Of a stretch of 64,000 bases of DNA, positions 2,440-53,871 are shown piece by piece. Position 1 is the stretch's first letter; every line of letters starts with the position of its first letter. This stretch comes from Parvularcula bermudensis HTCC2503 (GTDB lineage: Bacteria; Pseudomonadota; Alphaproteobacteria; Caulobacterales; Parvularculaceae), in assembly GCF_000152825.2 (NCBI RefSeq), contig NC_014414.1, positions 248,001-312,000 on the forward strand, read 5' to 3'. A program made the position numbers and the translations under genes. The notes under the pieces are model-generated. The model was not told where the DNA came from and made no database searches. It saw only the letters and a program-made list of their open reading frames with translations.

Positions 2440-3601
2440 TCGCGATTACCGCGCCCAGGATGACCGGAAAGACATCCGCTCGCCCTTGGGTCCGCCACCA
2501 TGTCTGCCCAATGGTCCAAACCCCTCTGAGAAAGACGCCGAGAAAGACCAGGACCCCGACCGCCCCAAGATGGACGGCAATCTCAAAATAGGCATTGTGA
2601 AAGCTGAATTGATGGTCGGGCTTATAAAACTGCTTGGCAAGGATCAGGGCCTGATCGTTATCGGCGGCCCAGAAATTTCCCGCCCCCACACCGAGGAGAG
2701 GGTGGTCAGCGATGACCTGCCGCGCCGCCTCCCAAAGGACGGTCCGTCCCGTGAGGGTCGCATCCTTGCCGAACAGGCCGAGAAGGTCGGCCAGCGGATC
2801 GATCCGCAGCCCGATAATGGCGAAGGTAGCCCCAAGGGCCAGAAGGAGGAAAACGCCGCTGACGATTACGGGGCGCGCGCCCCTGATCGCCGTCGCTGGA
2901 CGCCAGACAACGGCAAGGCCAACCCCGAGAGGCACCGCCAGGGCCAGAAGAATGATTGAGGACGCCGAAAGGGATTGCACGATGAGAAACAGCGCAATGC
3001 CGGAAAGTCCCAAGGCGATCGGCTTGAAGACCGGACGATAGCCGGCCCCGACCATCACGGCGACGGCGGCGAGAACGACGAGAAGCATACGTTTGCCAAG
3101 GACATTCTTGGCCGGAAACAACCCGACCACCGCCTCGGCCCCGTGGGCGCCCCCCACCCACATGGTCTCCATCGACATCAGCGACCCAAGGGCCAGGGCC
3201 CCCTGACTGAAGAGAACCGCGATGGCGAGTTGGCGGATATCGAGCCGGATTGCCGCCGCCAGGGCCACAGTGACCATGACGGTCATCAGGATGCCATGGC
3301 GCAGAGCGGCACTGGCGCTGTCCGCCCAGATGGCGGAGGCCGCGGCGAGGGCGGGCAATATATAGACCCATCGATGGCGCCATGCCGCCGCCAAGAGGGG
3401 GCGGCCGATAAAGGCAAGATAGGCGAGCAGGAGGAGCGTGAAGGGCGCTCTGACCGGCTGCATCATCGGCATATTGAGCGGCAGAATGATGAACGCCGCC
3501 ATCATCATGGCCTCATCCAGCAGGGTTCCCCGGCCCGGCTGGACCGCGAACCGAGATGGTCGATCAATATCGATAGGGTCTGAAACTGCGGACATCGACA
3601 C
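2324..3601 (-). CDS. O-antigen ligase / Wzy polymerase family membrane protein (ExoQ-like)
   Basis: This 425-residue inner-membrane protein has about ten to twelve hydrophobic helices and a large soluble loop near residues 280-350. The loop carries the Wzy_C/WaaL signature pattern: TGRTVLWEAA, then DHPLLGVGAGNF, then HNAYFEIAVHLGAVG, with the histidine of HNAY being the conserved catalytic-loop residue of the family. Length matches ExoQ (about 430). In context it would polymerise the repeat units made by the ExoA/L/M-like enzymes; a ligase role for lipopolysaccharide is the alternative. Translation may start at GTG 3601 or ATG 3595. It is divergent from exoA across a 71-base gap and its 3' end overlaps the flippase gene. 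Confidence 0.8.
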   Translation of the reverse strand: MSMSAVSDPIDIDRPSRFAVQPGRGTLLDEAMMMAAFIILPLNMPMMQPVRAPFTLLLLAYLAFIGRPLLAAAWRHRWVYILPALAAASAIWADSASAALRHGILMTVMVTVALAAAIRLDIRQLAIAVLFSQGALALGSLMSMETMWVGGAHGAEAVVGLFPAKNVLGKRMLLVVLAAVAVMVGAGYRPVFKPIALGLSGIALFLIVQSLSASSIILLALAVPLGVGLAVVWRPATAIRGARPVIVSGVFLLLALGATFAIIGLRIDPLADLLGLFGKDATLTGRTVLWEAARQVIADHPLLGVGAGNFWAADNDQALILAKQFYKPDHQFSFHNAYFEIAVHLGAVGVLVFLGVFLRGVWTIGQTWWRTQGRADVFPVILGAVIAIRTLTEAEMFDALLLAPLLFWAVVLLSEEERGRAAATH

Positions 3602-3672
3602 GATGGCTGAGATCCCTCCGAGTAGTGGTGCCGTTGACGCTTTTCCTACACCTTACGTGTTAATGATGCGCG

Positions 3673-4764
3673 ATGGCGAACCTGAAGACGGCGACAGAAA
3701 GGGCGGATCAGGCAGCGGTCCCCGACCCAGCGCCCCTCCCCCCCGAGGCGGGCGCGGCCACCGCCGCGGATGTGGTCCTCGCACGGGTGCTCGTCGTCGT
3801 GCCAACCCTGAACGAAGCGGCCAGGATCGAAGACTGCCTGCGATCGCTGATCCCCGATGCCGGGGCGGCTGAGGTCGTCGTCTATGACGGCGGCAGTACC
3901 GATGGCACCTGCGCCATTGTTGAGCGCCTGATCGCAGCCTTTCCCCATCTCAGCCTTCAGCACAATGACCGCGCGGTCCAGGCGGCGGCCGTCAATGCCG
4001 CCGCCCATGCCGCACCGGCTGACAGAGACATTCTGGTTCGCTGTGACGCCCATGCCCTCTACCCCCCCCATTATGTGCGTGACCTGGTCACGACCCTGAT
4101 CGCCCGCGAGGTAGACAGTGTCGTCGTCCCGATGGACACCGTTCCGCGACCGGGCAGCGGACGCATTGAGCGGGCCATCGCCCTCAGCCTCGACAGCCCC
4201 TTGGGCGCCGGCGGGGCGCCGCATCGCGGAGGTCGTACATCCGGTTGGGTCGACCATGGTCATCATGCCGCCTTTCGGCGGGAGCGGTTCTTAGCGCTCG
4301 GCGGCTATGACCCCCGCTTTGCGGTCAATGAAGACGCCGAATTCGACACCCGCCTGGCCCGAGCGGGGGGGCGGATCTGGCTCGACGCGGATATCCGTGT
4401 GCGATATTTTCCCCGCCGGTCCTTGACCGCTCTCTGGCGGCAATATCATCGTTATGGGACCTATCGCGCGCGTCATGCACGGCTGCACCGAAGCCGCCTC
4501 AAGCTGCGCCAGCTCGGCCCGGCCCTGCATCCATTGGCACTCCTCGCCTCTTTATTGATGATGCCGATATCGCCCTGGCTCGCCGCGATCTACCCTGCGC
4601 TCTATCTGGGCCTTCTGGGCCTTGGGGCGCTAGGGTTAGGCATCAAGCACAAAGCGGCCGCCTGCCTGCTCTCGCCGCTAATCTTTGCCACGCTGCACAT
4701 GGCCTGGGGAACAGGGTTCCTTGCGGGATGGCTCAGCCCCTGGGCAGACACCGAGACATCATGA
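3673..4764 (+). CDS. exoA: Glycosyltransferase family 2, ExoA-like (exopolysaccharide assembly)
   Basis: The 363-residue protein has a GT-A domain followed by C-terminal hydrophobic helices (about 275-355). Visible landmarks: VVVPTLNEAARIEDCLRSL near residue 40 at the nucleotide-binding strand, YDGGSTDGT, RCDAHALYP as the D-x-D-like site, VDHGHHAAF, then the acceptor-side NEDAEFD and a later RQYHRYG. This combination is characteristic of ExoA, which in Sinorhizobium adds the second sugar (glucose) of the succinoglycan repeat to the lipid carrier at the inner membrane face. ExoL- and ExoM-like genes follow with four-base ATGA overlaps, so the three are one coupled operon. The actual sugar here is not readable. 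Confidence 0.82.
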   Translation: MANLKTATERADQAAVPDPAPLPPEAGAATAADVVLARVLVVVPTLNEAARIEDCLRSLIPDAGAAEVVVYDGGSTDGTCAIVERLIAAFPHLSLQHNDRAVQAAAVNAAAHAAPADRDILVRCDAHALYPPHYVRDLVTTLIAREVDSVVVPMDTVPRPGSGRIERAIALSLDSPLGAGGAPHRGGRTSGWVDHGHHAAFRRERFLALGGYDPRFAVNEDAEFDTRLARAGGRIWLDADIRVRYFPRRSLTALWRQYHRYGTYRARHARLHRSRLKLRQLGPALHPLALLASLLMMPISPWLAAIYPALYLGLLGLGALGLGIKHKAAACLLSPLIFATLHMAWGTGFLAGWLSPWADTETS

Positions 4765-5903
4765 CTGTCGCCTTTTTCGGTCAGGAGGCCGGTGACCCCG
4801 CCGTACAAAGACGTATCGCAGCTCTGACGCGCTGTGGATGGTCCGTCGACGCCTATACCTTTCGCCGGGAGTCCGCAAAGGACCGGCCTTTTGAAAATGT
4901 CGATCTCGGACTCACCCATGATGGTCAATTCGTGCATCGCCTTGGGGCGATCATCCGCACTCCTCATCAATTGCGGCATGTCGATCGGCTCAAGGCCGCG
5001 GATATTTTCTGGGCCCGTAATCTTGACATGCTGGCCATCGCCGATCGCGTCCGACGGCGTGTTCGTCCGTCGGCGCCCCTGGTCTATGAGGCTCTCGATA
5101 TTCACCGGCTCCTGACGACCTCCTCTCCCATCGGGCTTGCCTTGCGGGGGTGGGAGAGACAACTCTTGCGTCGAACGGCCCTCCTGATCGTGTCCTCCCC
5201 GGATTATGTCAGCGAGTATTTTGAGAAACGACAGGGCCGCGTGCCGCCCTGGGCCCTTATCGAAAACCGGCTTCCCCCGGCGGGCCTTCCCCCGCGCCCC
5301 CACCCCGACATATTGCGTCCCCAGGAGAAAAAAGAACGCCGCCCCCTCCGCCTGGTCTGGGCGGGAAAGCTTCGATGCGAGCGATCCTTTGCGCTCCTGC
5401 GCCACATCGCGACGACACCGCCGACGCCCCTGCATGTCGATATTTGGGGACGGACCAGCACCGACCGCCTGACCGATCTCGATCAGATCGCCGCTGCGAC
5501 CCCGCACATGACCTTCCATGGTCCTTACGCCGGGGCCGAAGGGCTTTCGCGCGTATACGGCAATGCGGACCTTGTCTGGGTCAATGATTATCTTGAAAGT
5601 CGTCCGGGGGGCGCGGCCGCCACCAATTCGGCCTGGCAATTACCAAACCGGCTCTATGAGGGGGGCTATTTCGGGGCGGTGCCGGTGGCGGTGGCGAATA
5701 CGGCCAGCGGCCGGTTTGTGAAGGCGCACGATATCGGCTTTGTGATCGAGGAACCGACGGAGGCAAGTTTACCGGCCCTGTTAGGGGCGCTCAGCCATGC
5801 CGATATCGACGCGAAGAGACGCCGCCTGCTCGCCGCGCCGCGATCCGTATTCGTCGACGATGACACCCCCTTGCGGGCCGCCATGGAAAAGATTGCCCCA
5901 TGA
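4761..5903 (+). CDS. exoL: Glycosyltransferase, ExoL-like (GT4/GT-B type)
   Basis: The start is placed at ATG 4761, which overlaps the exoA stop (ATGA); an upstream ATG at 4728 would only read through the end of exoA. The 380-residue product has a GT-B architecture: an N-terminal domain with FFGQEAGDPAVQRRI and YEALDIHR, and a C-terminal nucleotide-sugar domain with RLVWAGKL, then DLVWVNDYL and LPNRLYEGGYFG, the E-x7-E-like region. YE-x-LDIHR and N-RLYEGG are features of ExoL, the enzyme adding the third sugar in succinoglycan. Order exoA-exoL-exoM agrees with the order of sugar addition. The assignment is by family resemblance and neighbours. Confidence 0.72.
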   Translation: MTVAFFGQEAGDPAVQRRIAALTRCGWSVDAYTFRRESAKDRPFENVDLGLTHDGQFVHRLGAIIRTPHQLRHVDRLKAADIFWARNLDMLAIADRVRRRVRPSAPLVYEALDIHRLLTTSSPIGLALRGWERQLLRRTALLIVSSPDYVSEYFEKRQGRVPPWALIENRLPPAGLPPRPHPDILRPQEKKERRPLRLVWAGKLRCERSFALLRHIATTPPTPLHVDIWGRTSTDRLTDLDQIAAATPHMTFHGPYAGAEGLSRVYGNADLVWVNDYLESRPGGAAATNSAWQLPNRLYEGGYFGAVPVAVANTASGRFVKAHDIGFVIEEPTEASLPALLGALSHADIDAKRRRLLAAPRSVFVDDDTPLRAAMEKIAP

Positions 5904-6784
5904 CCCTCCCCCTTCTCGTCGGGGTCTGCACTTTCCGCCGACCCTTTTTGATCGAAACCGTCAGAAGCCTTGCCGCCCAGAGCCGACGCCCGGACCGGGT
6001 CATCATTATCGACAATGACGATCAATCGACGGCCGAGAAGATCGTCGATGCTGCGCGGGATGAAACGGGCCTCGACCTCTTCTACCGCCATGTCCCTGGC
6101 CGCAATATTGCCCTTGCCCGTAACGCGATCCTCGATGCCGCTGGGGACGCCCGCCTCGCCATGCTCGACGATGACGAAATAGCCGACGCTGAGTGGCTGG
6201 CTCAGCTCGAAATCGCGATGAGCAAGGGGGCAGACGCCGTTTTCGGCCCGAGCATCGCCGTCTATCCCGAAAACGCGCCCGATTGGATGGGGCACCTTTC
6301 CCCCCATAGCCAATGGCCCCCACAAAAAGGCGGGAGGCTGACCAGCGGTCATACCGCCAATGTTCTGATGGATACGACGGCCCCGGTCCTCGCGAACCGG
6401 CGGTTCGACCCCGCCTATGGTCGCCGGGGGGGGAGCGACGCGGTCTTTTTCGAGGCCGCCCTGCGGGAGGGGGCGCGGTTTCATCTTGTGGCCGATGCCC
6501 GCGTTTACGAACCGGTGATCGCCCAGCGACTGTCCACCCGGTGGCTCTATCGCCGACGGATCAAGGCGGGCATCACCATCGGTCTGAGTACCCCGGGGCG
6601 CCGCTCTCGGCGCGCTGTGCTGGCCATGGGCAAGAGTGCTTATTGTTTTGGCCGGGCAGCCCTTGCCATCGGCGACCCCGTCGCGCGTCACCGCCACGGC
6701 CTCCGCGGCGCTTTGCATGTCGGGGTCTTGCGAGGGACGCTCGGCCTCTCAGGCGCAGATTATTACGGGAAAGCCCCCGTGTGA
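5900..6784 (+). CDS. exoM: Glycosyltransferase family 2, ExoM-like
   Basis: The 294-residue soluble GT-A enzyme overlaps the exoL stop by four bases. The N-terminal GVCTFRRPFLIETVRSLA, the IIIDND strand, GRNIALARNAILDAA and the metal-binding LDDDEIADAEWL are hallmarks of ExoM, which adds the fourth sugar of the succinoglycan octasaccharide in rhizobia. About 120 bases of non-coding sequence separate it from the next gene, so the operon probably ends here. ExoY, ExoF, ExoP, ExoO, ExoU and ExoW equivalents are not present in this window. Confidence 0.82.
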   Translation: MTLPLLVGVCTFRRPFLIETVRSLAAQSRRPDRVIIIDNDDQSTAEKIVDAARDETGLDLFYRHVPGRNIALARNAILDAAGDARLAMLDDDEIADAEWLAQLEIAMSKGADAVFGPSIAVYPENAPDWMGHLSPHSQWPPQKGGRLTSGHTANVLMDTTAPVLANRRFDPAYGRRGGSDAVFFEAALREGARFHLVADARVYEPVIAQRLSTRWLYRRRIKAGITIGLSTPGRRSRRAVLAMGKSAYCFGRAALAIGDPVARHRHGLRGALHVGVLRGTLGLSGADYYGKAPV

Positions 6785-6909
6785 GCCCCCCATCCGCGTG
6801 AACCGTCCATGACCCCCGTCACAGAGGGTTCACATCTCCCACCTTCCCAAAGCGTGCAAGCTGGGGCAAGGTTTCCCAGATTTTCGTATGCGGGTCGGGT
6901 GGGGTGGTG

Positions 6910-7845
6910 ATGGCCAGATCGCTTGAGAGAGAAGTGCGTTTTGGAGGGCCCGGCGGCGCCATCCTCAATATGGTGCTGTTCCTGGGCGTTGTCGTGGCCG
7001 TCGCCTATTGGCTTTCCCCCCTCTCTCCCCAACCGAATGAGCTGTTGGTCACGAGCTTTTCCGCCAATCCCTATCTTAACGGTCTGATCCTGCTCGTGCT
7101 TGCGGTGGGCATCGTCTATAATTTCCGGCAGGCGGTGATTATCGATCCCGCCATCCGGTGGGTCCGCTCCTTCAGAGCATCGGTCGACCCTTCCCGCACC
7201 CGCCTGCCGCGCCCCCCTGCCCTGATCGGCGCCATGGCGCGGATCCTTCTCGATGCGGACGAGCGCGGCGGGCGCCTCACCCAGGCTTCGTCGCGGGCGA
7301 TCCTCGATTCGATCGGCACCCGGATCGACGAGGGCCGAGAGTTCGGTCGCTATGCCGGGAATCTTCTGGTGTTTCTCGGACTGCTCGGGACGTTCTGGGG
7401 GCTGTTACAGACGGTGACGGATGTATCCGCCGTCATTTCCTCCCTCGGGGCCTCCACCGGCGGGGATAGCGCGACGGCCGTGACGTCCTTGATCAACAAT
7501 CTCAATGAGCCGCTCTCAGGCATGAACACGGCCTTCTCCTCCTCGCTGTTCGGGTTGGGCGGCAGTCTGATCCTTGGCTTTCTCGACATCCAGGCGGGTC
7601 AGGCACAAAACCGTTTCTATAGTGATCTCGAAGACTGGCTCTCCGGTATCACCGAGAGCACGACCGGCAGCGCGGGCGAGGGTCGGGCGCACTTTACCGC
7701 TAGTGCCGATCTCATCGAGCCGCTGACCCAGGCCCTCACCGCCCTGGCCGAAGCGCAGAATGACAGTGCCGCTGCGGTGCGCGAGGAAATCCGTGAGCTA
7801 GGGCGGACCTTGCTTCAAGGCGACGATCGCAGACCGAGGCGATAG
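6910..7845 (+). CDS. MotA/TolQ/ExbB-family proton-channel subunit
   Basis: The 311-residue inner-membrane protein shows hydrophobic helices near residues 17-37, 58-75, 148-168 and 203-222. The third and fourth pair carry the family signature, LGLLGTFWGLLQTV and MNTAFSSSLFGLGGSLILG. Such proteins surround a MotB/TolR-type dimer and convert proton flow into motion. The ATG at 6910 is preferred over the GTGs at 6904 and 6907, which give nothing conserved. The gene just downstream encodes the matching OmpA/MotB-type partner. The short C-terminal tail after the last helix (about 85 residues) and missing cheA/fli context argue against a flagellar stator. What the motor acts on is unknown. Confidence 0.82.
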   Translation: MARSLEREVRFGGPGGAILNMVLFLGVVVAVAYWLSPLSPQPNELLVTSFSANPYLNGLILLVLAVGIVYNFRQAVIIDPAIRWVRSFRASVDPSRTRLPRPPALIGAMARILLDADERGGRLTQASSRAILDSIGTRIDEGREFGRYAGNLLVFLGLLGTFWGLLQTVTDVSAVISSLGASTGGDSATAVTSLINNLNEPLSGMNTAFSSSLFGLGGSLILGFLDIQAGQAQNRFYSDLEDWLSGITESTTGSAGEGRAHFTASADLIEPLTQALTALAEAQNDSAAAVREEIRELGRTLLQGDDRRPRR

Positions 7846-47680: not shown

Positions 47681-48979
47681 TTATTCCGCGGCCATGACCG
47701 GTATGTGGGGCTTATTGGCGCGGTAAGCCGTAATCTTTTCCTCAATTTCATGGCGGAAATGCTGAATAAGACCTTGCACCGGCCAGGCTGCCGCATCGCC
47801 AAGGGCGCAGATCGTATGACCTTCGACTTGACCGGCGACGTCCAGCAATTTGTCGATTTCCCACATTTCCGCTTCGCCGCGGCTCATCCGAACGAGGACC
47901 CGCCACATCCAGCCTGTTCCCTCCCTGCAGGGGGTACACTGGCCACAACTCTCATGTTTGTAGAAATGCGCGATACGCGCAATCGCTTTGACCATGTCGG
48001 TGGACTTGTCCATGACGATCACCGCCGCCGTCCCAAGCCCTGATTTGTGTTCCCGCAAGGCGTCGAAATCCATCAAGACATCGTCGCAGATCGACTTTGG
48101 CAGGCATCGGACGGAGGAGCCGCCCGGGATAACGGCCTTGAGATTGTCCCAGCCGCCCCGGACCCCGCCGCAATGGGTATCGATCAAGGTCTTGAGCGGG
48201 ATCGACATCTCCTCCTCGACATTGCACGGCTTGTTCACATGGCCGGAAATGCAGAACACTTTCGTGCCGTGATTGTTCTCGCGCCCAAAGCGCTTGAACC
48301 AATCCGCCCCGCGCCGAATGATCGTCGGCACGACGGCGATTGATTCCACATTGTTCACCGTGGTCGGACAGCCATAGAGCCCCGCGCCCGCCGGGAAAGG
48401 CGGCTTCAAGCGGGGCTGACCCTTTTTGCCCTCAAGGCTTTCAAGGAGGGCGGTTTCCTCACCGCAAATATACGCCCCGGCGCCGTGGGAGAGATAAAGG
48501 TCGAAATCGTAGCCGTGAACATTGTCCTTGCCGATCAGCTTGGCGGCATAGGCCTCGTCGATGGCCTTTTGCAGCTGCTCGCGCTCGAAAATGTACTCCC
48601 CCCGAATATAGATGTAGCAGGCATGGGCGCGCATCGCGAAGCTGGCGATCAGACATCCCTCGATCAGGGTATGCGGGTCGTGCCGCATGATCTCGCGATC
48701 CTTACAGGTTCCCGGCTCGGACTCATCGGCATTGACCACGAGGTAATGGGGCCGTTCCCCCACCTCCTTCGGCATGAAGGACCATTTAAGACCGGTGGGA
48801 AAGCCCGCCCCCCCGCGGCCCCGCAAGCCGCTATCCTTCACCTGCTGGATCACCCAATCGATCCCCATATCGAGGATGTCCTTTGTGCCGTTCCAGGCGC
48901 CCCGGTCCTTGGCCCCCTCGAGGAAGGGGTCCTTTAATCCATAGAGATTGGTGAAGATGCGGTCTTTATCTTGGAGCAT
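47681..48979 (-). CDS. nuoF: NADH-quinone oxidoreductase subunit F
   Basis: The 432-residue subunit binds NADH and FMN and holds cluster N3. NADH/FMN motifs: [72 protein letters not shown] in parts. The 4Fe-4S motif is [13 protein letters not shown] with a further Cys near [11 protein letters not shown] 48979 gives the usual start [14 protein letters not shown]; the frame could begin at a TTG (49042), but those 21 residues are not conserved. Two small membrane-protein genes separate it from nuoE. Confidence 0.96.
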
Positions 48980-49072
48980 GAGGGAAAAGCTGTCCCATTC
49001 GATTTCTGATGTGGTGGTAAGGCTTTCGGCGCAGCCTGCCAAGGCGGCATGATGCCCAAAGCCCTTCTCCTA

Positions 49073-49276
49073 TTATGGCGATGAGCGCCCTTTGCGCCGG
49101 AGAACGGAAAATCCAATCACGGCGCCGACGATGACGGCAAAGATCAAGACCCCTCCCAACGCCACTTGGAAGCCCGCCGCCTCGCCGATCAGCCAAAAGA
49201 CAAAGGCAAAAGGCAACGCCGACACGGCGACGATCTGCAACAGTGCACGGGTGCGGGAGGGGGATGAGTTGGCCAT
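49073..49276 (-). CDS. Small two-helix membrane protein between nuoE and nuoF
   Basis: The 67-residue protein consists of a short hydrophilic start, a helix at about 13-32 (LQIVAVSALPFAFVFWLIG), a short turn, a second helix at 36-58 (ALGGVLIFAVIVGAVIGF), and a basic tail. I know no name for it. AGGA lies eight bases before the ATG. Small membrane ORFs between nuoE and nuoF occur in several alphaproteobacteria, so it is likely a real part of the locus. Confidence 0.68.
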   Translation of the reverse strand: MANSSPSRTRALLQIVAVSALPFAFVFWLIGEAAGFQVALGGVLIFAVIVGAVIGFSVLRRKGRSSP

Positions 49277-49344
49277 GGACGGTTCCTAAAGCGGCGGTTG
49301 CTGATGCGTTCAGGGCACCTCGCCCGTCTGGTCTTCCTGCGATC

Positions 49345-49578
49345 CTATTCCTGTGATCGCCGCGCGGAGAGAATACGCGGGAGGAGAAAGGTCGAACTGA
49401 CGAGGGAGATCACCACGATCGAGCCGATCAACAGCGGCACACTCTCATGCATCAAGAAATAGGCCGCCACAGCGAGGATCAAAAAGCTCCCCTCCAAAAG
49501 GGCGAAGATGACATAGAAGCGGGACTCACCGCTCCCTGACGCCTTCGCCGCCGCCCCTTCTTGATCGCGCCGATCCAT
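49345..49578 (-). CDS. Small membrane protein downstream of nuoE
   Basis: The 77-residue protein starts seven bases after the nuoE stop, which argues for co-translation. A charged N-terminus is followed by two hydrophobic helices, about 21-39 (FYVIFALLEGSFLILAVAA) and 45-65 (PLLIGSIVVISLVSSTFLL), and a basic end. No family is recognised. The frame runs back to 49662 inside nuoE, but ATG 49578 is the natural start. Confidence 0.62.
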   Translation of the reverse strand: MDRRDQEGAAAKASGSGESRFYVIFALLEGSFLILAVAAYFLMHESVPLLIGSIVVISLVSSTFLLPRILSARRSQE

Positions 49579-49585
49579 AGGACGC

Positions 49586-50251
49586 TCAGCCTTGCTCCGC
49601 CGGCGCTGAATTGGGCAGGCGGTCGATCGGCTTCGCCGCCGATCCGTCATAGAGGCTCTCATCGGTAAGGGTCGTGTTGTCCCCCTCAGGGTCTGATGTG
49701 TGCCGCGCGGGATTAAAGACCCCCGGCGCGACCGCCTCGCCCTTATCCAAGGTCAAGAGGATCTCCTCGAACTTCTCAGGGGTCAGATCTTGGTAATAAT
49801 AGTCGTTGATCTGCGCCATTGGCGCGTTGCAACAGGCGCCGAGACATTCGACCTCGAGCCAGGACAGATGGCCGCTCTCGGTGATCGCTCCTTGCGGCCC
49901 GATCACCCGCTCGCAAACCTCGATCAGGGATTCAGACCCCCGCAGCATGCACGGCGTCGTGCCGCACACCTGAACGAAATAGGTGCCGACGGGCTTGAGG
50001 TTGAACATGGTGTAGAAGGTCGCAACCTCATAGACGCGAATATAGGGCATGCCGAGCTGCGTCGCGATCGCCTCCATCGCGGGGATCGACACCCACCCTT
50101 CCTGCTTTTGCGCGCGCCACAGGAAAGGGATCACCGCAGAGGCCTGACGCCCCTCGGGAAACTTGGTGATTTCCTTCTCACACCAGGCCTTATTGTCCTC
50201 GGTCCATTGAAAGCTGTCGGGCTGCTGTCGAGCGGGGGAGCGATCGGCCAT
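49586..50251 (-). CDS. nuoE: NADH-quinone oxidoreductase subunit E
   Basis: The 221-residue subunit carries the 2Fe-2S cluster N1a. The four cysteines are in QVCGTTPCMLRG and ECLGACCNAPM; YEVATFYTMFNLKPVG precedes them as in all NuoE. The C-terminal 50 residues (after TLDKGE) are a variable hydrophilic tail. A clear GAGGAGAGG lies before the ATG. It is the first complex I gene of this minus-strand series: nuoABCD are not upstream, where a cupredoxin gene is found instead. Confidence 0.96.
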   Translation of the reverse strand: MADRSPARQQPDSFQWTEDNKAWCEKEITKFPEGRQASAVIPFLWRAQKQEGWVSIPAMEAIATQLGMPYIRVYEVATFYTMFNLKPVGTYFVQVCGTTPCMLRGSESLIEVCERVIGPQGAITESGHLSWLEVECLGACCNAPMAQINDYYYQDLTPEKFEEILLTLDKGEAVAPGVFNPARHTSDPEGDNTTLTDESLYDGSAAKPIDRLPNSAPAEQG

Positions 50252-50400: not shown

Positions 50401-50712
50401 TTAGTCCACCGCCACCTTAAGGGACATTTTCGGATGGATCGCACAGGTCAGCTCGTAAATACCCTGTTTGGCAAAGGCGATCTCGATATACTCACCCGGC
50501 CTCTGAATACCCGAATCGACCTTCAGATTGCGATGCTTGGACTGAACGTGATGCACGAAGCGATCGTCGTTTATCACCTTCACGGTCTGCCCCGCCGAAA
50601 TCGACAGCGCCCCCGGAGCGAAGGACCGATCCATTTGCGAGACCGTCAGCGCATCGTCTTGCCCATGCGTAAACATCAAGACCGACGAGATCAGGAGAAA
50701 TGAGCTTTTCAT
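50401..50712 (-). CDS. Exported cupredoxin-like copper protein
   Basis: The 103-residue precursor has a short signal peptide (MKSSFLLISSVLMFTHGQ). The mature part is a plastocyanin-type beta sandwich: FAPGALSISAGQTVKVIND, DDRFVHHVQSKH, and the copper loop YELTCAIHPKMSLKV. The type 1 copper ligands His (VHHV), Cys, His and Met (C-x2-H-x2-M) are all present. Similar small proteins are annotated as methylamine-utilisation-type cupredoxins. It lies 77 bases from, and divergent to, the histidine kinase of the globin operon, so joint control is likely. Confidence 0.82.
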   Translation of the reverse strand: MKSSFLLISSVLMFTHGQDDALTVSQMDRSFAPGALSISAGQTVKVINDDRFVHHVQSKHRNLKVDSGIQRPGEYIEIAFAKQGIYELTCAIHPKMSLKVAVD

Positions 50713-50789
50713 AAGAAAAACATGCCCAGAAGACGTTTCGGAATACTCAAAATAACATTCAATTGACGAGTTTTTCGTAAGCCAGCCCC

Positions 50790-52580
50790 ATGCTAGGCTT
50801 CCGTCTGAAACGACTGACACGCGCGCCGTTGAGCAGCGCCATGCATGCAGGCTTCGGGCTGATGACGCTCCTGACCGTGAGCTATGCGGTATGGTCGATC
50901 CATGCCCTCGACCGGTCAAGCCGCATTGTGCGTCAGACCTATGACCATTCCTTGATGGCCATTAACTATGCGCGAGCGGCGGAGGCCAATACGGCCCGCT
51001 TCCTCCTCAGCGATCGACATGATGACGAGATGCTGATGACGGTGGTCTCTGATCTCGCCATCGTGGTCGACCGCAGCGAGGGCCCGTCACGGGACGAAGC
51101 GTCAGCGATCCGCGATACCATTGCCGGTTGGCGGGAAGGGAACACCCCCGACAATGCCGCCGATTGGAGCGAACAGGCGTTCGATCTGTTAACCGAACTT
51201 CTGGCAGCGGACAGCTTCATCGAACGGGAAAAGGCGATCGCCGCCGCGGATCGATCGACCCGGCTCGCCATGATCGGCATGGTTCTGGTCGCCCTTCTCT
51301 CCCTCCTCCTCGCAGCAGGGCTAAACCGCCTGATCGTCACCCCGCTTAAAGCGCTGGAAGTCGCCGCCCGAAAGATTGCCGCCGGCGCATACGATTCGTC
51401 TCTGCCCAAGGTGGTCGGCATCGAGCTGATCGCGCTGGTCACCTCCATGCGGGTGATGCAGCGCAAGATTGCTCGCCGTATCGCCGAGGAACTCGAAGGG
51501 CGTCAGCGCGCCGAAACCCGCCTTGAGGCGATCATCCGAGAAGCGGCGGATGCCATCTTGATCCTCGATAAGGCCGGACGGATCCAGATGGTCAACGATG
51601 CCGCACAGGCACTGTTACCGGAGGCGTCAATGGGCCGGGGCGAGCGCCTGACGGATCTGCTTGCCGCGACAAGTATCGACCCGAATATTATTCTTACCCT
51701 GAACGAAGGAGGGGAAACCCGTTTGCCCAACGGGGTCTGGGTCAATGCCGCAGCCCCCCACACCAATGATGAGGGACGCATTCTGGTCTGGTCCGACATC
51801 ACGGCCATCAAAGCGCGCGAAGAGGATTTGAGCGCCGCCAATGAGGCCAAGACCCGGTTCATGGCGGTGACGACCCACGAACTCCGCACCCCGCTCAATG
51901 CCGTCATCGGCTTTTCCCAATTGATGCGAGACGAAGCCTTTGGGCCCTTAGGGGACGAGAGTTATCAACAGTTCGCCCGCGAAATTTTTGAAGCAGGAAA
52001 CACGCTGCTTGGCCTTGTCGACGACATTCTCAGATTTTCCGACGCTCAAAATACGGATTACTATGCCGACCTTGAGCTGGTCGCGCCGGCCCCGCTGTTC
52101 CATGCCCTGTGCGAGGGCGTCAGATACGACGAACATTACACCTCCCTGACCCTTGAAACGATCATTGACGACACGCTGCAAGAGATCCGCGCGAAGCCTT
52201 CTCATCTCACCTCGGCGTTACGCCATCTCCTGATCAATGCGGGCCAATTCTCCGACGAAGGCGGACTTGTCTCGTTCATCGCGAAGGATTGCGGTGACAC
52301 CGTCGTCGTGACGATCAAAGATCGGGGCAAGGGGATGAGCGCCGAGGCCTTGGAGCGCGCGCTCGAACTGTTCGGGCAGGCGGATAACAGCCGTACCCGT
52401 CACCATGAGGGAATGGGCCTTGGCCTGCCTCTGGCGCGGACAATCGTCCTCTCCCATCGCGGGACCTTCGATATCGAAAGTCTCGCCGGAGAAGGGACCA
52501 CAATCACCATCATCCTGCCCTATGCCGAGGGCGAGATGGCGGAAGACACACCTCTCACCAGGAGCCTCGCCAGCGCATGA
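50790..52580 (+). CDS. Membrane sensor histidine kinase (HAMP-PAS-HisKA-HATPase)
   Basis: The 596-residue protein has two membrane helices, about 18-38 and 160-178, bounding a 120-residue periplasmic helical sensor region. A HAMP domain (about 180-232, with TPLKALEVAARKIAAGAYD), a PAS-like domain (about 243-345) and the kinase core follow: phosphoacceptor His363 in TTHELRTPLNAVIGFSQL, N box HLLINAGQFSDE, G boxes DRGKGMS and GMGLGLPLA. No receiver domain or response-regulator gene is nearby. Its stop overlaps the DUF3034 gene start (ATGA), so it is coupled to the next two genes. Confidence 0.9.
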   Translation: MLGFRLKRLTRAPLSSAMHAGFGLMTLLTVSYAVWSIHALDRSSRIVRQTYDHSLMAINYARAAEANTARFLLSDRHDDEMLMTVVSDLAIVVDRSEGPSRDEASAIRDTIAGWREGNTPDNAADWSEQAFDLLTELLAADSFIEREKAIAAADRSTRLAMIGMVLVALLSLLLAAGLNRLIVTPLKALEVAARKIAAGAYDSSLPKVVGIELIALVTSMRVMQRKIARRIAEELEGRQRAETRLEAIIREAADAILILDKAGRIQMVNDAAQALLPEASMGRGERLTDLLAATSIDPNIILTLNEGGETRLPNGVWVNAAAPHTNDEGRILVWSDITAIKAREEDLSAANEAKTRFMAVTTHELRTPLNAVIGFSQLMRDEAFGPLGDESYQQFAREIFEAGNTLLGLVDDILRFSDAQNTDYYADLELVAPAPLFHALCEGVRYDEHYTSLTLETIIDDTLQEIRAKPSHLTSALRHLLINAGQFSDEGGLVSFIAKDCGDTVVVTIKDRGKGMSAEALERALELFGQADNSRTRHHEGMGLGLPLARTIVLSHRGTFDIESLAGEGTTITIILPYAEGEMAEDTPLTRSLASA

Positions 52581-53437
52581 TCCGCTTCATGTTCATGGCC
52601 GCTTTGGCCACAATGATCGTCAGTCCCCCCGCCGCCGCTCAATGGGCCCCCGATCGGGGACGCCTGTTGATGACGGGCGGGGTGAGCCAGATTGAAGGCC
52701 AGGGGGGGAGCGGTCTTGTCCCTTGGGCGCTCATCACCGGCTACGGGTCGGAGCTGAGCTGGGGCGCCTCAGCCTTTGTCACCGATGTTCAACTCTCCGA
52801 TTTCTCCATCTCCAGCCATGGTCTGGCCGTGGGCGTGAGGAACCGGCTTGAGCTGAGTTATGCGCGCCAGGCCTTCGACACCGAGGAACTCGGCGGCGCT
52901 CTCGGGCTGGGGGAAGGGTTTGAATTCGACCAAGAGGTCTTCGGCGCCAAGCTGCGGCTCGCGGGCGATGTCGTCACCGACCAGGATACGTGGCTGCCCC
53001 AGATCAGCGTCGGCATTCAGGTGAAGAAGAATAAGGACGGCGATATCGTCCGTGCCGTCGGGGCGGATGACGACGAGGGCGTGGATTATTATCTGTCCGC
53101 CACGAAACTATTGCTCGCCCAGAGCCTCCTCCTTGGGGGAACCATTCGGTCGACAGAGGCCAATCAACTCGGCTTTTTGGGCTTCAGCTCGACACGGACG
53201 ATCCAGGTCGAAGCCACCGCTGCGGCTCTTTTGACGAAACGCTTAGCCCTGGGGGGCGAGGTCCGAACCAAGCCCGACAACCTGGCCTTCGCCGAGGAGG
53301 AGGATGCGGCCACCGCCTATCTCGCCTATTTCCCGAGCAAATATCTGTCGCTCACCGCCGCCTATGCCGATCTTGGAACCATTGCGGGGCTTGACGATCA
53401 GACCGGCTCATACCTATCAGTTCAAGGATCATTCTGA
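52577..53437 (+). CDS. DUF3034-family outer-membrane protein
   Basis: The 286-residue precursor has a signal peptide (cleavage after PPAAA, about residue 21). The mature part shows the DUF3034 pattern: LLMTGGVSQIEGQGGSGLVPW in parts, then GLAVGVRNRLELSYARQAFD, and many beta strands with a C-terminal aromatic (YLSVQGSF). It is most likely a porin-like barrel in the outer membrane; the family function is unknown. It overlaps the kinase gene by four bases and the globin gene by one (TGATG). Confidence 0.85.
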   Translation: MIRFMFMAALATMIVSPPAAAQWAPDRGRLLMTGGVSQIEGQGGSGLVPWALITGYGSELSWGASAFVTDVQLSDFSISSHGLAVGVRNRLELSYARQAFDTEELGGALGLGEGFEFDQEVFGAKLRLAGDVVTDQDTWLPQISVGIQVKKNKDGDIVRAVGADDDEGVDYYLSATKLLLAQSLLLGGTIRSTEANQLGFLGFSSTRTIQVEATAAALLTKRLALGGEVRTKPDNLAFAEEEDAATAYLAYFPSKYLSLTAAYADLGTIAGLDDQTGSYLSVQGSF

Positions 53438-53871
53438 TGCGCGCCCTGATTGCTTGCCTTTCGCTTGTCGTCGCCACAGCCATGGCCCCGCAACCGGCTG
53501 CGGCCTTAAGCGACGATGCCCTTTATCGTGCCTTGGGCGAAAAAGCGGGGATCGAGCGGGTGATCGAAACCCTCCTCCACCGCAGCCTTGCCGATCCGCG
53601 TATCGCCGACACCTTCGAAGGCGCGAATTTCGAGCGCCTTGAGGAGAAGCTGGTCCTTCAGATCTGTGAGCTGGCAGGGGGCCCATGCGTTTATGACGGC
53701 CTGTCGATGGCCGACAGCCATATGGGGCAGGAGCTGACCACGGCGCATTTCAATGCGCTCGTTGAGAATTTGCGCGCCGCGATGGCGGCCGAAGGCGTGG
53801 GGTTCCGTGCCCAGAACCGCCTTCTCGCCCTTCTCGCCCCGATGCATCGCGATGTCGTGACCAAGCCCTAA
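53437..53871 (+). CDS. Exported group 1 truncated haemoglobin
   Basis: The 144-residue precursor has a signal peptide (MRALIACLSLVVATAMAPQPAAA), unusual for the truncated globins, most of which are cytosolic. The globin part starts DALYRALGEKAGIERVIE. The CD1 Phe is in DTFEGANF, and the proximal haem His is in MADSHMGQELTTAHFNALVENL (as in MADSHMG). The usual B10 Tyr appears replaced by Leu (RVIETLLHRSL against a DDFYDRVL pattern), and two cysteines flank the E helix end (ICELAGGPCVY). It should bind haem in the periplasm. The start overlaps the DUF3034 stop. Confidence 0.87.
   Translation: MRALIACLSLVVATAMAPQPAAALSDDALYRALGEKAGIERVIETLLHRSLADPRIADTFEGANFERLEEKLVLQICELAGGPCVYDGLSMADSHMGQELTTAHFNALVENLRAAMAAEGVGFRAQNRLLALLAPMHRDVVTKP

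Follow-up and report, generated by a model that had tools for sequence, protein, structure and literature searches.

Organization of the locus

The stretch analysed here (the window) comprises 64,000 bases of the genome of Parvularcula bermudensis HTCC2503, a single contig of 2,902,643 bases, and contains a cluster of four genes that encode a membrane histidine kinase, a protein of the DUF3034 family, a truncated globin and a cupredoxin (Table 1). Three of the genes are tightly packed: an ATGA overlap joins the end of the kinase gene to the DUF3034 start at 52577, and a TGATG overlap joins the DUF3034 stop codon (53435-53437) to the globin start. The cupredoxin gene is divergent, with 77 bases between its ATG (complement of 50710-50712) and that of the kinase. 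An earlier interpretation made without database searches, the sequence-only reading, had described this arrangement and proposed that the four products form one device for gas, haem or copper handling; the coordinates agree with the overlaps and the gap that it reported.

Pfam bears out the identities proposed for all four products. The cupredoxin matches Cupredoxin_1 (29.8 bits, cut-off 27), the DUF3034 protein its own family (329 bits) and the globin Bac_globin (46.1 bits, cut-off 21), while the kinase carries two-component kinase domains, with matches to HATPase_c, HisKA and PAS_8; its HAMP domain scores slightly below the cut-off and is above it in a relative. The periplasmic loop of the kinase, a putative sensor, is predicted to fold as a helical bundle. 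Signal-like hydrophobic segments, recognized by eye and with a simple hydrophobicity rule, open the cupredoxin, the DUF3034 protein and the globin, the three kinase neighbours to which signal peptides had been ascribed. No response regulator was detected with a receiver-domain profile anywhere in the 64 kb window, in line with the sequence-only reading.

Table 1. Features of the cluster (window positions).
Feature	Position	Strand	Basis
Short cupredoxin; signal segment, 103 amino acids, C-x2-H-x2-M copper motif	50401..50712	-	Pfam and motif
Divergent cupredoxin/kinase intergenic region, 77 bases	50713..50789	.	Sequence
Membrane histidine kinase with a four-helix sensor in the periplasm; HAMP (slightly below cut-off), PAS, HisKA, HATPase	50790..52580	+	Pfam, structure prediction, relatives
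Periplasmic sensor segment of the kinase, approximately residues 43-148; common to MCP-type and GGDEF-EAL-type relatives	50916..51233	+	
DUF3034, predicted 12-stranded outer-membrane β-barrel	52577..53437	+	Pfam, structure prediction
Group-1 truncated globin, predicted to be exported; distal pocket apolar, with a proximal His and a Cys pair	53437..53871	+	

The globin and DUF3034 form a conserved pair

DUF3034 was found in 39 of 398 genomes sampled from the phylum, 40 of 299 from the order and 14 of 385 from the class, the window's genome being included each time; within the genus itself it is present in just 2 of the 10 genomes sampled. A scan of named genomes gave at least 586 confirmed relatives; retaining the best 80 of them biases this set towards window-like sequences. 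Among the matches listed, it spans Sphingomonas, Brevundimonas, Caballeronia, Undibacterium, Duganella, Kordiimonadaceae, Lysobacterales and Acetobacteraceae. The phylum sample contributed 38 loci, the order and class samples 50 and the named-genome scan 80; with the window, 169 were classified, and 163 non-identical loci remained after five duplicates and one fragment (L163) had been dropped. The neighbourhood considered for cupredoxins and sensors extended to 4.5 kb, some loci being truncated at contig ends.

An exported group-1 truncated globin adjoins DUF3034 or is fused to it in 159 of the 163 loci, across many genera. The arrangement therefore exceeds chance, and the adjacency is not confined to the window's genome, which would have been the refutation named by the sequence-only reading. 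The globin gene lies downstream on the same strand in 157 cases, always within 64 bases, upstream in one (L148) and fused in one (L138). In Duganella sp. CF458, a single frame of 424 codons encodes a signal segment, the globin and DUF3034. Among 145 genomes of the family of this strain, 61 of which gave a match, one further fusion was found (G1094), 83% identical over residues 7-424 and free of stop codons; three relatives (G1116, G1147 and G1067) encode globin and DUF3034 as separate neighbours in the order of the fusion. From the position of the globin, N-terminal to the barrel in the fusions, we infer that it resides in the periplasm. A loose hydrophobicity rule, which carries no false-positive control, predicts export for 159 of 159 globins, 157 of 163 DUF3034 proteins and 131 of 135 cupredoxins; a stricter rule missed many globins with long linkers.

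Variants of the pair were also observed. Three Undibacterium loci (L136, L143 and L145) contain a tandem duplication in the order DUF3034-globin-DUF3034-globin. One module globin (L043:6888-7322) has a lipobox-like start, which suggests a lipoprotein form, and a loose lipobox pattern is found upstream of the domain in 24 of 159 globins.

The structure prediction for DUF3034 has 12 strands (predicted local distance difference test score 86.5, predicted template modelling score 0.82), and the window protein has a signal segment and ends in Phe; the family is predicted to form an outer-membrane β-barrel. Compared with solved structures, the DUF3034 sequence gave two weak matches, Ika4 (E 0.0028) and Ika8 (E 0.13).

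The best matches of the window globin in the PDB are group 1 globins, and its Bac_globin match and proximal HisF8 place it, as a putative haem protein, in group N of the truncated haemoglobins (TrHbN). Pocket positions were assigned by mapping the window residues through the PDB alignment. HisF8 is kept in 159 of 159 module globins and CD1 is Phe in 156. On the distal side, E7 is Leu, Phe, Ile or Val in every one of them, E11 is Leu (146), Phe (10) or Ile (3) and never Gln, and B10 is Val (72), Leu (39), Ile (22), Met (11), Tyr (8) or another residue (7); the window globin has Leu at all three positions. The control globins, the 6 with loci among 17 non-module truncated globins from 30 genomes, have Tyr B10 in 6 of 6 cases, yet Leu or Val at E11. 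Hydrophobic residues at B10, E7 and E11 are the mark of TrHbN subgroup 2 as defined in PMC11904497, and the module globins show this pattern. They do not fit subgroup 1, the type with high oxygen affinity and nitric oxide (NO) dioxygenase activity that has Tyr B10 with Gln at E7 or E11. Since Tyr B10 is rare and the distal pocket apolar, NO dioxygenation is unlikely; the remaining roles are sensing of NO or carbon monoxide (CO), low-affinity O2 binding, or redox chemistry. A Cys pair, absent from the six controls, is complete in 148 module globins, reduced to a single Cys in 2 and missing in 9, and would fit a periplasmic disulfide.

The cupredoxin is co-inherited with DUF3034

All 135 module cupredoxin frames contain a C-x2-H-x2-M motif, and an upstream His ligand is invariant among nine aligned long cupredoxins. 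By the Cys-x2-His-x2-Met motif and this His, the module protein is a type-1 cupredoxin with a putative copper site. In the order sample, 35 of 299 genomes have a match to the profile of the long form (A5) at E ≤1e-20. The 40 DUF3034 genomes of the order comprise 32 with the long form, seven with the short form, all seven kinase-type (G000, G459, G488, G498, G513, G558 and G578), and one that is a fragment (G579), so that 39 of 40 have one form or the other. The long form occurs without DUF3034 in 3 of 259 genomes (Fisher p 4e-32, computed for the long form only and uncorrected for kinship).

Where no cupredoxin lies within 4.5 kb of DUF3034, 17 of 23 such genomes hold the long form (E ≤1e-30), in some of them on another contig or far off (for example G389, G261, G225, G213, G624, G640 and G605). 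None of 17 DUF3034-free control genomes of the order has it, the 23 genomes being taxonomically broader than these controls. Because the genes are conserved together, and are co-inherited even where the cupredoxin is remote, the proposal that they make up one device is well founded in this respect. In the window, NuoF- and NuoE-like genes, identified by eye, adjoin the cupredoxin gene on the same strand (47681-50251).

Sensor domains and their outputs

The part of the proposal that did not stand concerns the kinase: a histidine kinase as defining part was rejected, as it is one of three outputs. Sensor and cupredoxin types are paired throughout, with a dCache sensor and a long cupredoxin in 108 loci, a four-helix sensor and a short cupredoxin in 18, and no mixed locus; one further locus has a dCache sensor without a cupredoxin, and 36 have no sensor nearby (8 with a long, 1 with a short and 27 with neither cupredoxin). 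The sensor profiles were built from the same classified loci; independent Pfam profiles place dCache_3 above the cut-off in two of three GGDEF-EAL proteins, and 4HB_MCP_1 below it in one kinase. The window belongs to the branch with a short cupredoxin and a four-helix sensor, whereas the usual signalling neighbour is a GGDEF-EAL protein of the dCache type. The dCache sensors carry a GGDEF-EAL output in 107 loci (109 genes) and, in 2 cases, a GGDEF output truncated at the contig end. The four-helix sensors carry a kinase in 15 loci (16 genes), GGDEF-EAL in 2, and the signalling domain of a methyl-accepting chemotaxis protein (MCP) in 1. Among eight four-helix proteins with the three kinds of output, 7 of the 11 invariant columns of the sensor-HAMP region are in the periplasmic part.

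By regular expression, 98 of 111 GGDEF-EAL proteins have the EAL motif (108 with ExL variants included), and 40 have a GGDEF motif in the strict sense, which makes a phosphodiesterase acting on cyclic di-GMP (c-di-GMP) the probable output in most loci. The idea that kinase-type genomes are devoid of c-di-GMP enzymes was rejected, as EAL matches (E ≤0.001) occur in 15 of 15 examined. They number 2-9 per kinase-type genome, with 3 in the window's genome, compared with 4-13 in 10 phosphodiesterase-type genomes (Mann-Whitney p 0.004 with the module's own gene subtracted, uncorrected for genome size and kinship).

On the DUF3034 tree two changes suffice for the sensor label, two for the cupredoxin label and four for the output. 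When the four-helix group is contrasted with all other rows, four changes are required, and supported branches make two of these unavoidable. The branches around the window lack support, and L157, with a dCache sensor and a long cupredoxin, falls inside that zone. With two label switches, the perfect pairing of sensor and cupredoxin represents one or two events.

No receiver-domain match was found in 13 of the 15 kinase-type loci; L162 has such matches inside the kinase, and in L090 a distinct receiver domain lies 1.3 kb beyond the cupredoxin. The L162 locus (2703-7205) is from a same-genus relative with a window-like layout, and its hybrid kinase has two receiver-domain matches, which points to a phosphorelay. 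In L173 (6879-10827), two tandem histidine kinases with four-helix sensors are located between globin and cupredoxin.

Proposed mechanism

Co-inheritance of a barrel, an exported haem protein, a copper protein and a signalling protein, the last of which is exchanged from lineage to lineage at its output end, suggests a previously undescribed form of sensing outside the inner membrane. On balance, we lean towards a trans-envelope haem/copper sensor in which barrel and globin form a constant core, the cupredoxin corresponds in type to the inner-membrane sensor, and the output can be exchanged. In the direction of signalling that we infer, the DUF3034 barrel would hold the haem globin on the periplasmic side of the outer membrane, where the globin may bind a small ligand (NO, CO or low-affinity O2) or undergo redox chemistry; NO is a first guess, and an unlikely one. 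The type-1 cupredoxin would relay the state of the core to the inner-membrane sensor, by binding or by electron transfer. The sensor would then drive its swappable output: in most loci an EAL phosphodiesterase that acts on c-di-GMP, in the branch of the window a histidine kinase, and in a single relative the signalling domain of an MCP.

Several observations weigh against such a sensor. Both cupredoxin and sensor are lacking within 4.5 kb in 27 of the 163 loci, and four of these lack the globin as well (L081, L155, L160 and L161). A tblastn search for a globin in the four was negative, except that L160 gave one weak hit (26.6% identity, E 5e-4) away from DUF3034, and the genomes of L155 and L160 gave no cupredoxin match; these DUF3034 copies are possibly paralogues with a different role. 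According to Pfam, acyl-CoA dehydrogenase genes lie beside the L155 and L160 copies, and a formyltransferase gene beside that of L161. Six of the 23 genomes with no cupredoxin near DUF3034 are without a strong long-cupredoxin match (three weak, three none), and at least three of the 17 positive ones (G503, G1177 and G1184) reflect a second DUF3034 locus or a gene just past 4.5 kb. An independent-pairs test of the sensor-cupredoxin pairing yielded one pair on supported branches, which puts significance out of reach. Kinase and cupredoxin share one frame of 709 codons in L151, but an 84% identical sister kinase ends in a stop codon, with none of the cupredoxin in the approximately 1.5 kb beyond; the combined frame is therefore a single case. 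The NO marker NnrS shows no enrichment (present in 9 of 40 DUF3034 genomes versus 70 of 259 without, p 0.70), and hydrophobic pockets of the kind found here have been proposed to suit O2 transport or storage (PMC11904497).

Such pockets, together with the loci that have neither sensor nor cupredoxin nearby and the resemblance of the barrel fold to channels, would fit an effector, a periplasmic device made up of barrel, globin and cupredoxin that serves redox chemistry, O2 storage, detoxification, or metal or haem handling and that the signalling protein controls or parallels. We regard this as rather unlikely, since the sensor type co-varies with the cupredoxin type and one frame joins kinase and cupredoxin, which ties the copper protein to signalling; detoxification by NO dioxygenation is also disfavoured by the near absence of Tyr B10. 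The predicted 12-strand barrel has FapF, a polypeptide exporter, and porins as its best structural matches, as expected if DUF3034 moved a metal chelate, haem, a hydrophobic molecule or a polypeptide across the outer membrane with globin and cupredoxin as periplasmic partners; identity to FapF is 13%, however, a common fold proves no function, and we judge this explanation improbable. That the genes are unrelated and adjacent through shared ancestry, with two tree switches accounting for the sensor-cupredoxin pairing, is very improbable, as co-occurrence persists through changed gene orders, strands and distances, globin and barrel are fused in places, and distant or other-contig cupredoxins (G389, G261, G624, G640 and G605 among them) already contradict it.

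Relation to known systems

Among the open-licence papers listed on DUF3034 (PF11231) or on truncated haemoglobins in connection with the periplasm, cupredoxins or c-di-GMP, we found no account of the module. The accessible portions of PMC3770913, PMC11102522, PMC2631029 and PMC11247825 do not describe it, and the two mentions of DUF3034 found are a figure legend in a paper on DUF3037 and a row of a Streptomyces table. It is possible, and we put it forward tentatively, that this is the first sensor to combine a periplasmic haem globin on an outer-membrane barrel, a cupredoxin relay, a transmembrane sensor and plug-in phosphodiesterase, kinase or chemoreceptor outputs. If the trans-envelope sensor is correct, DUF3034, a set of exported truncated globins and a cupredoxin family would gain a function together, and it would become clear to what input certain GGDEF-EAL proteins and orphan kinases respond.

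Among the closer parallels, the HNOB and FIST haem domains of H-NOX and NosP are cytosolic. The module instead has an exported truncated globin, an outer-membrane barrel and a cupredoxin, and Pfam finds no HNOB or FIST domain in the four window proteins. Like these systems, it encodes a haem protein beside swappable kinase, c-di-GMP enzyme or MCP outputs: H-NOX and NosP lie beside or act on kinases and on diguanylate cyclase or phosphodiesterase enzymes (PMC8738867, PMC8846402), with kinase or MCP domains as outputs (PMC9814294). YfiBNR, as described in PMC2837407, shares with the module a three-compartment control of a membrane c-di-GMP enzyme, through outer-membrane YfiB, periplasmic YfiR and the inner-membrane cyclase YfiN. 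It consists of an OmpA/Pal lipoprotein, a periplasmic repressor and a cyclase, with no globin or copper protein, whereas the module has an EAL enzyme or a kinase; the four window proteins gave no Pfam match to an OmpA/Pal-like lipoprotein or YfiR.

Other likenesses are partial. FapF resembles the predicted DUF3034 barrel in fold, a likeness that does not imply a common function. The hydrophobic B10, E7 and E11 and the HisF8 of the module globins recur in TrHbN subgroup 2, for example in Shewanella benthica HbN, but the module globins are predicted to be exported, have the Cys pair in 148 of 159 cases and are tied to DUF3034; the available part of PMC11904497 mentions no periplasm, signal peptide or operon. 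In globin-coupled sensors a globin likewise has a diguanylate cyclase, kinase or chemotaxis output (PMC8846402). Those sensors are fused 3/3 globins, whereas the module has a separate exported 2/2 globin. Haem sensing beyond the inner membrane, as proposed here, is found in DcrA and the Geobacter receptors, which are not known to involve a barrel, globin or cupredoxin. In Desulfovibrio DcrA and the Geobacter chemoreceptors, the periplasmic haem is c-type, bound covalently inside the receptor's own sensor. As far as the sources available describe them, the haem sensors compared are cytosolic or fused to their outputs, and a globin anchored at the outer membrane and partnered by a copper protein would represent a new design. 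The output logic of the module recalls that of H-NOX/NosP and its geometry that of YfiBNR, and it belongs to neither system.

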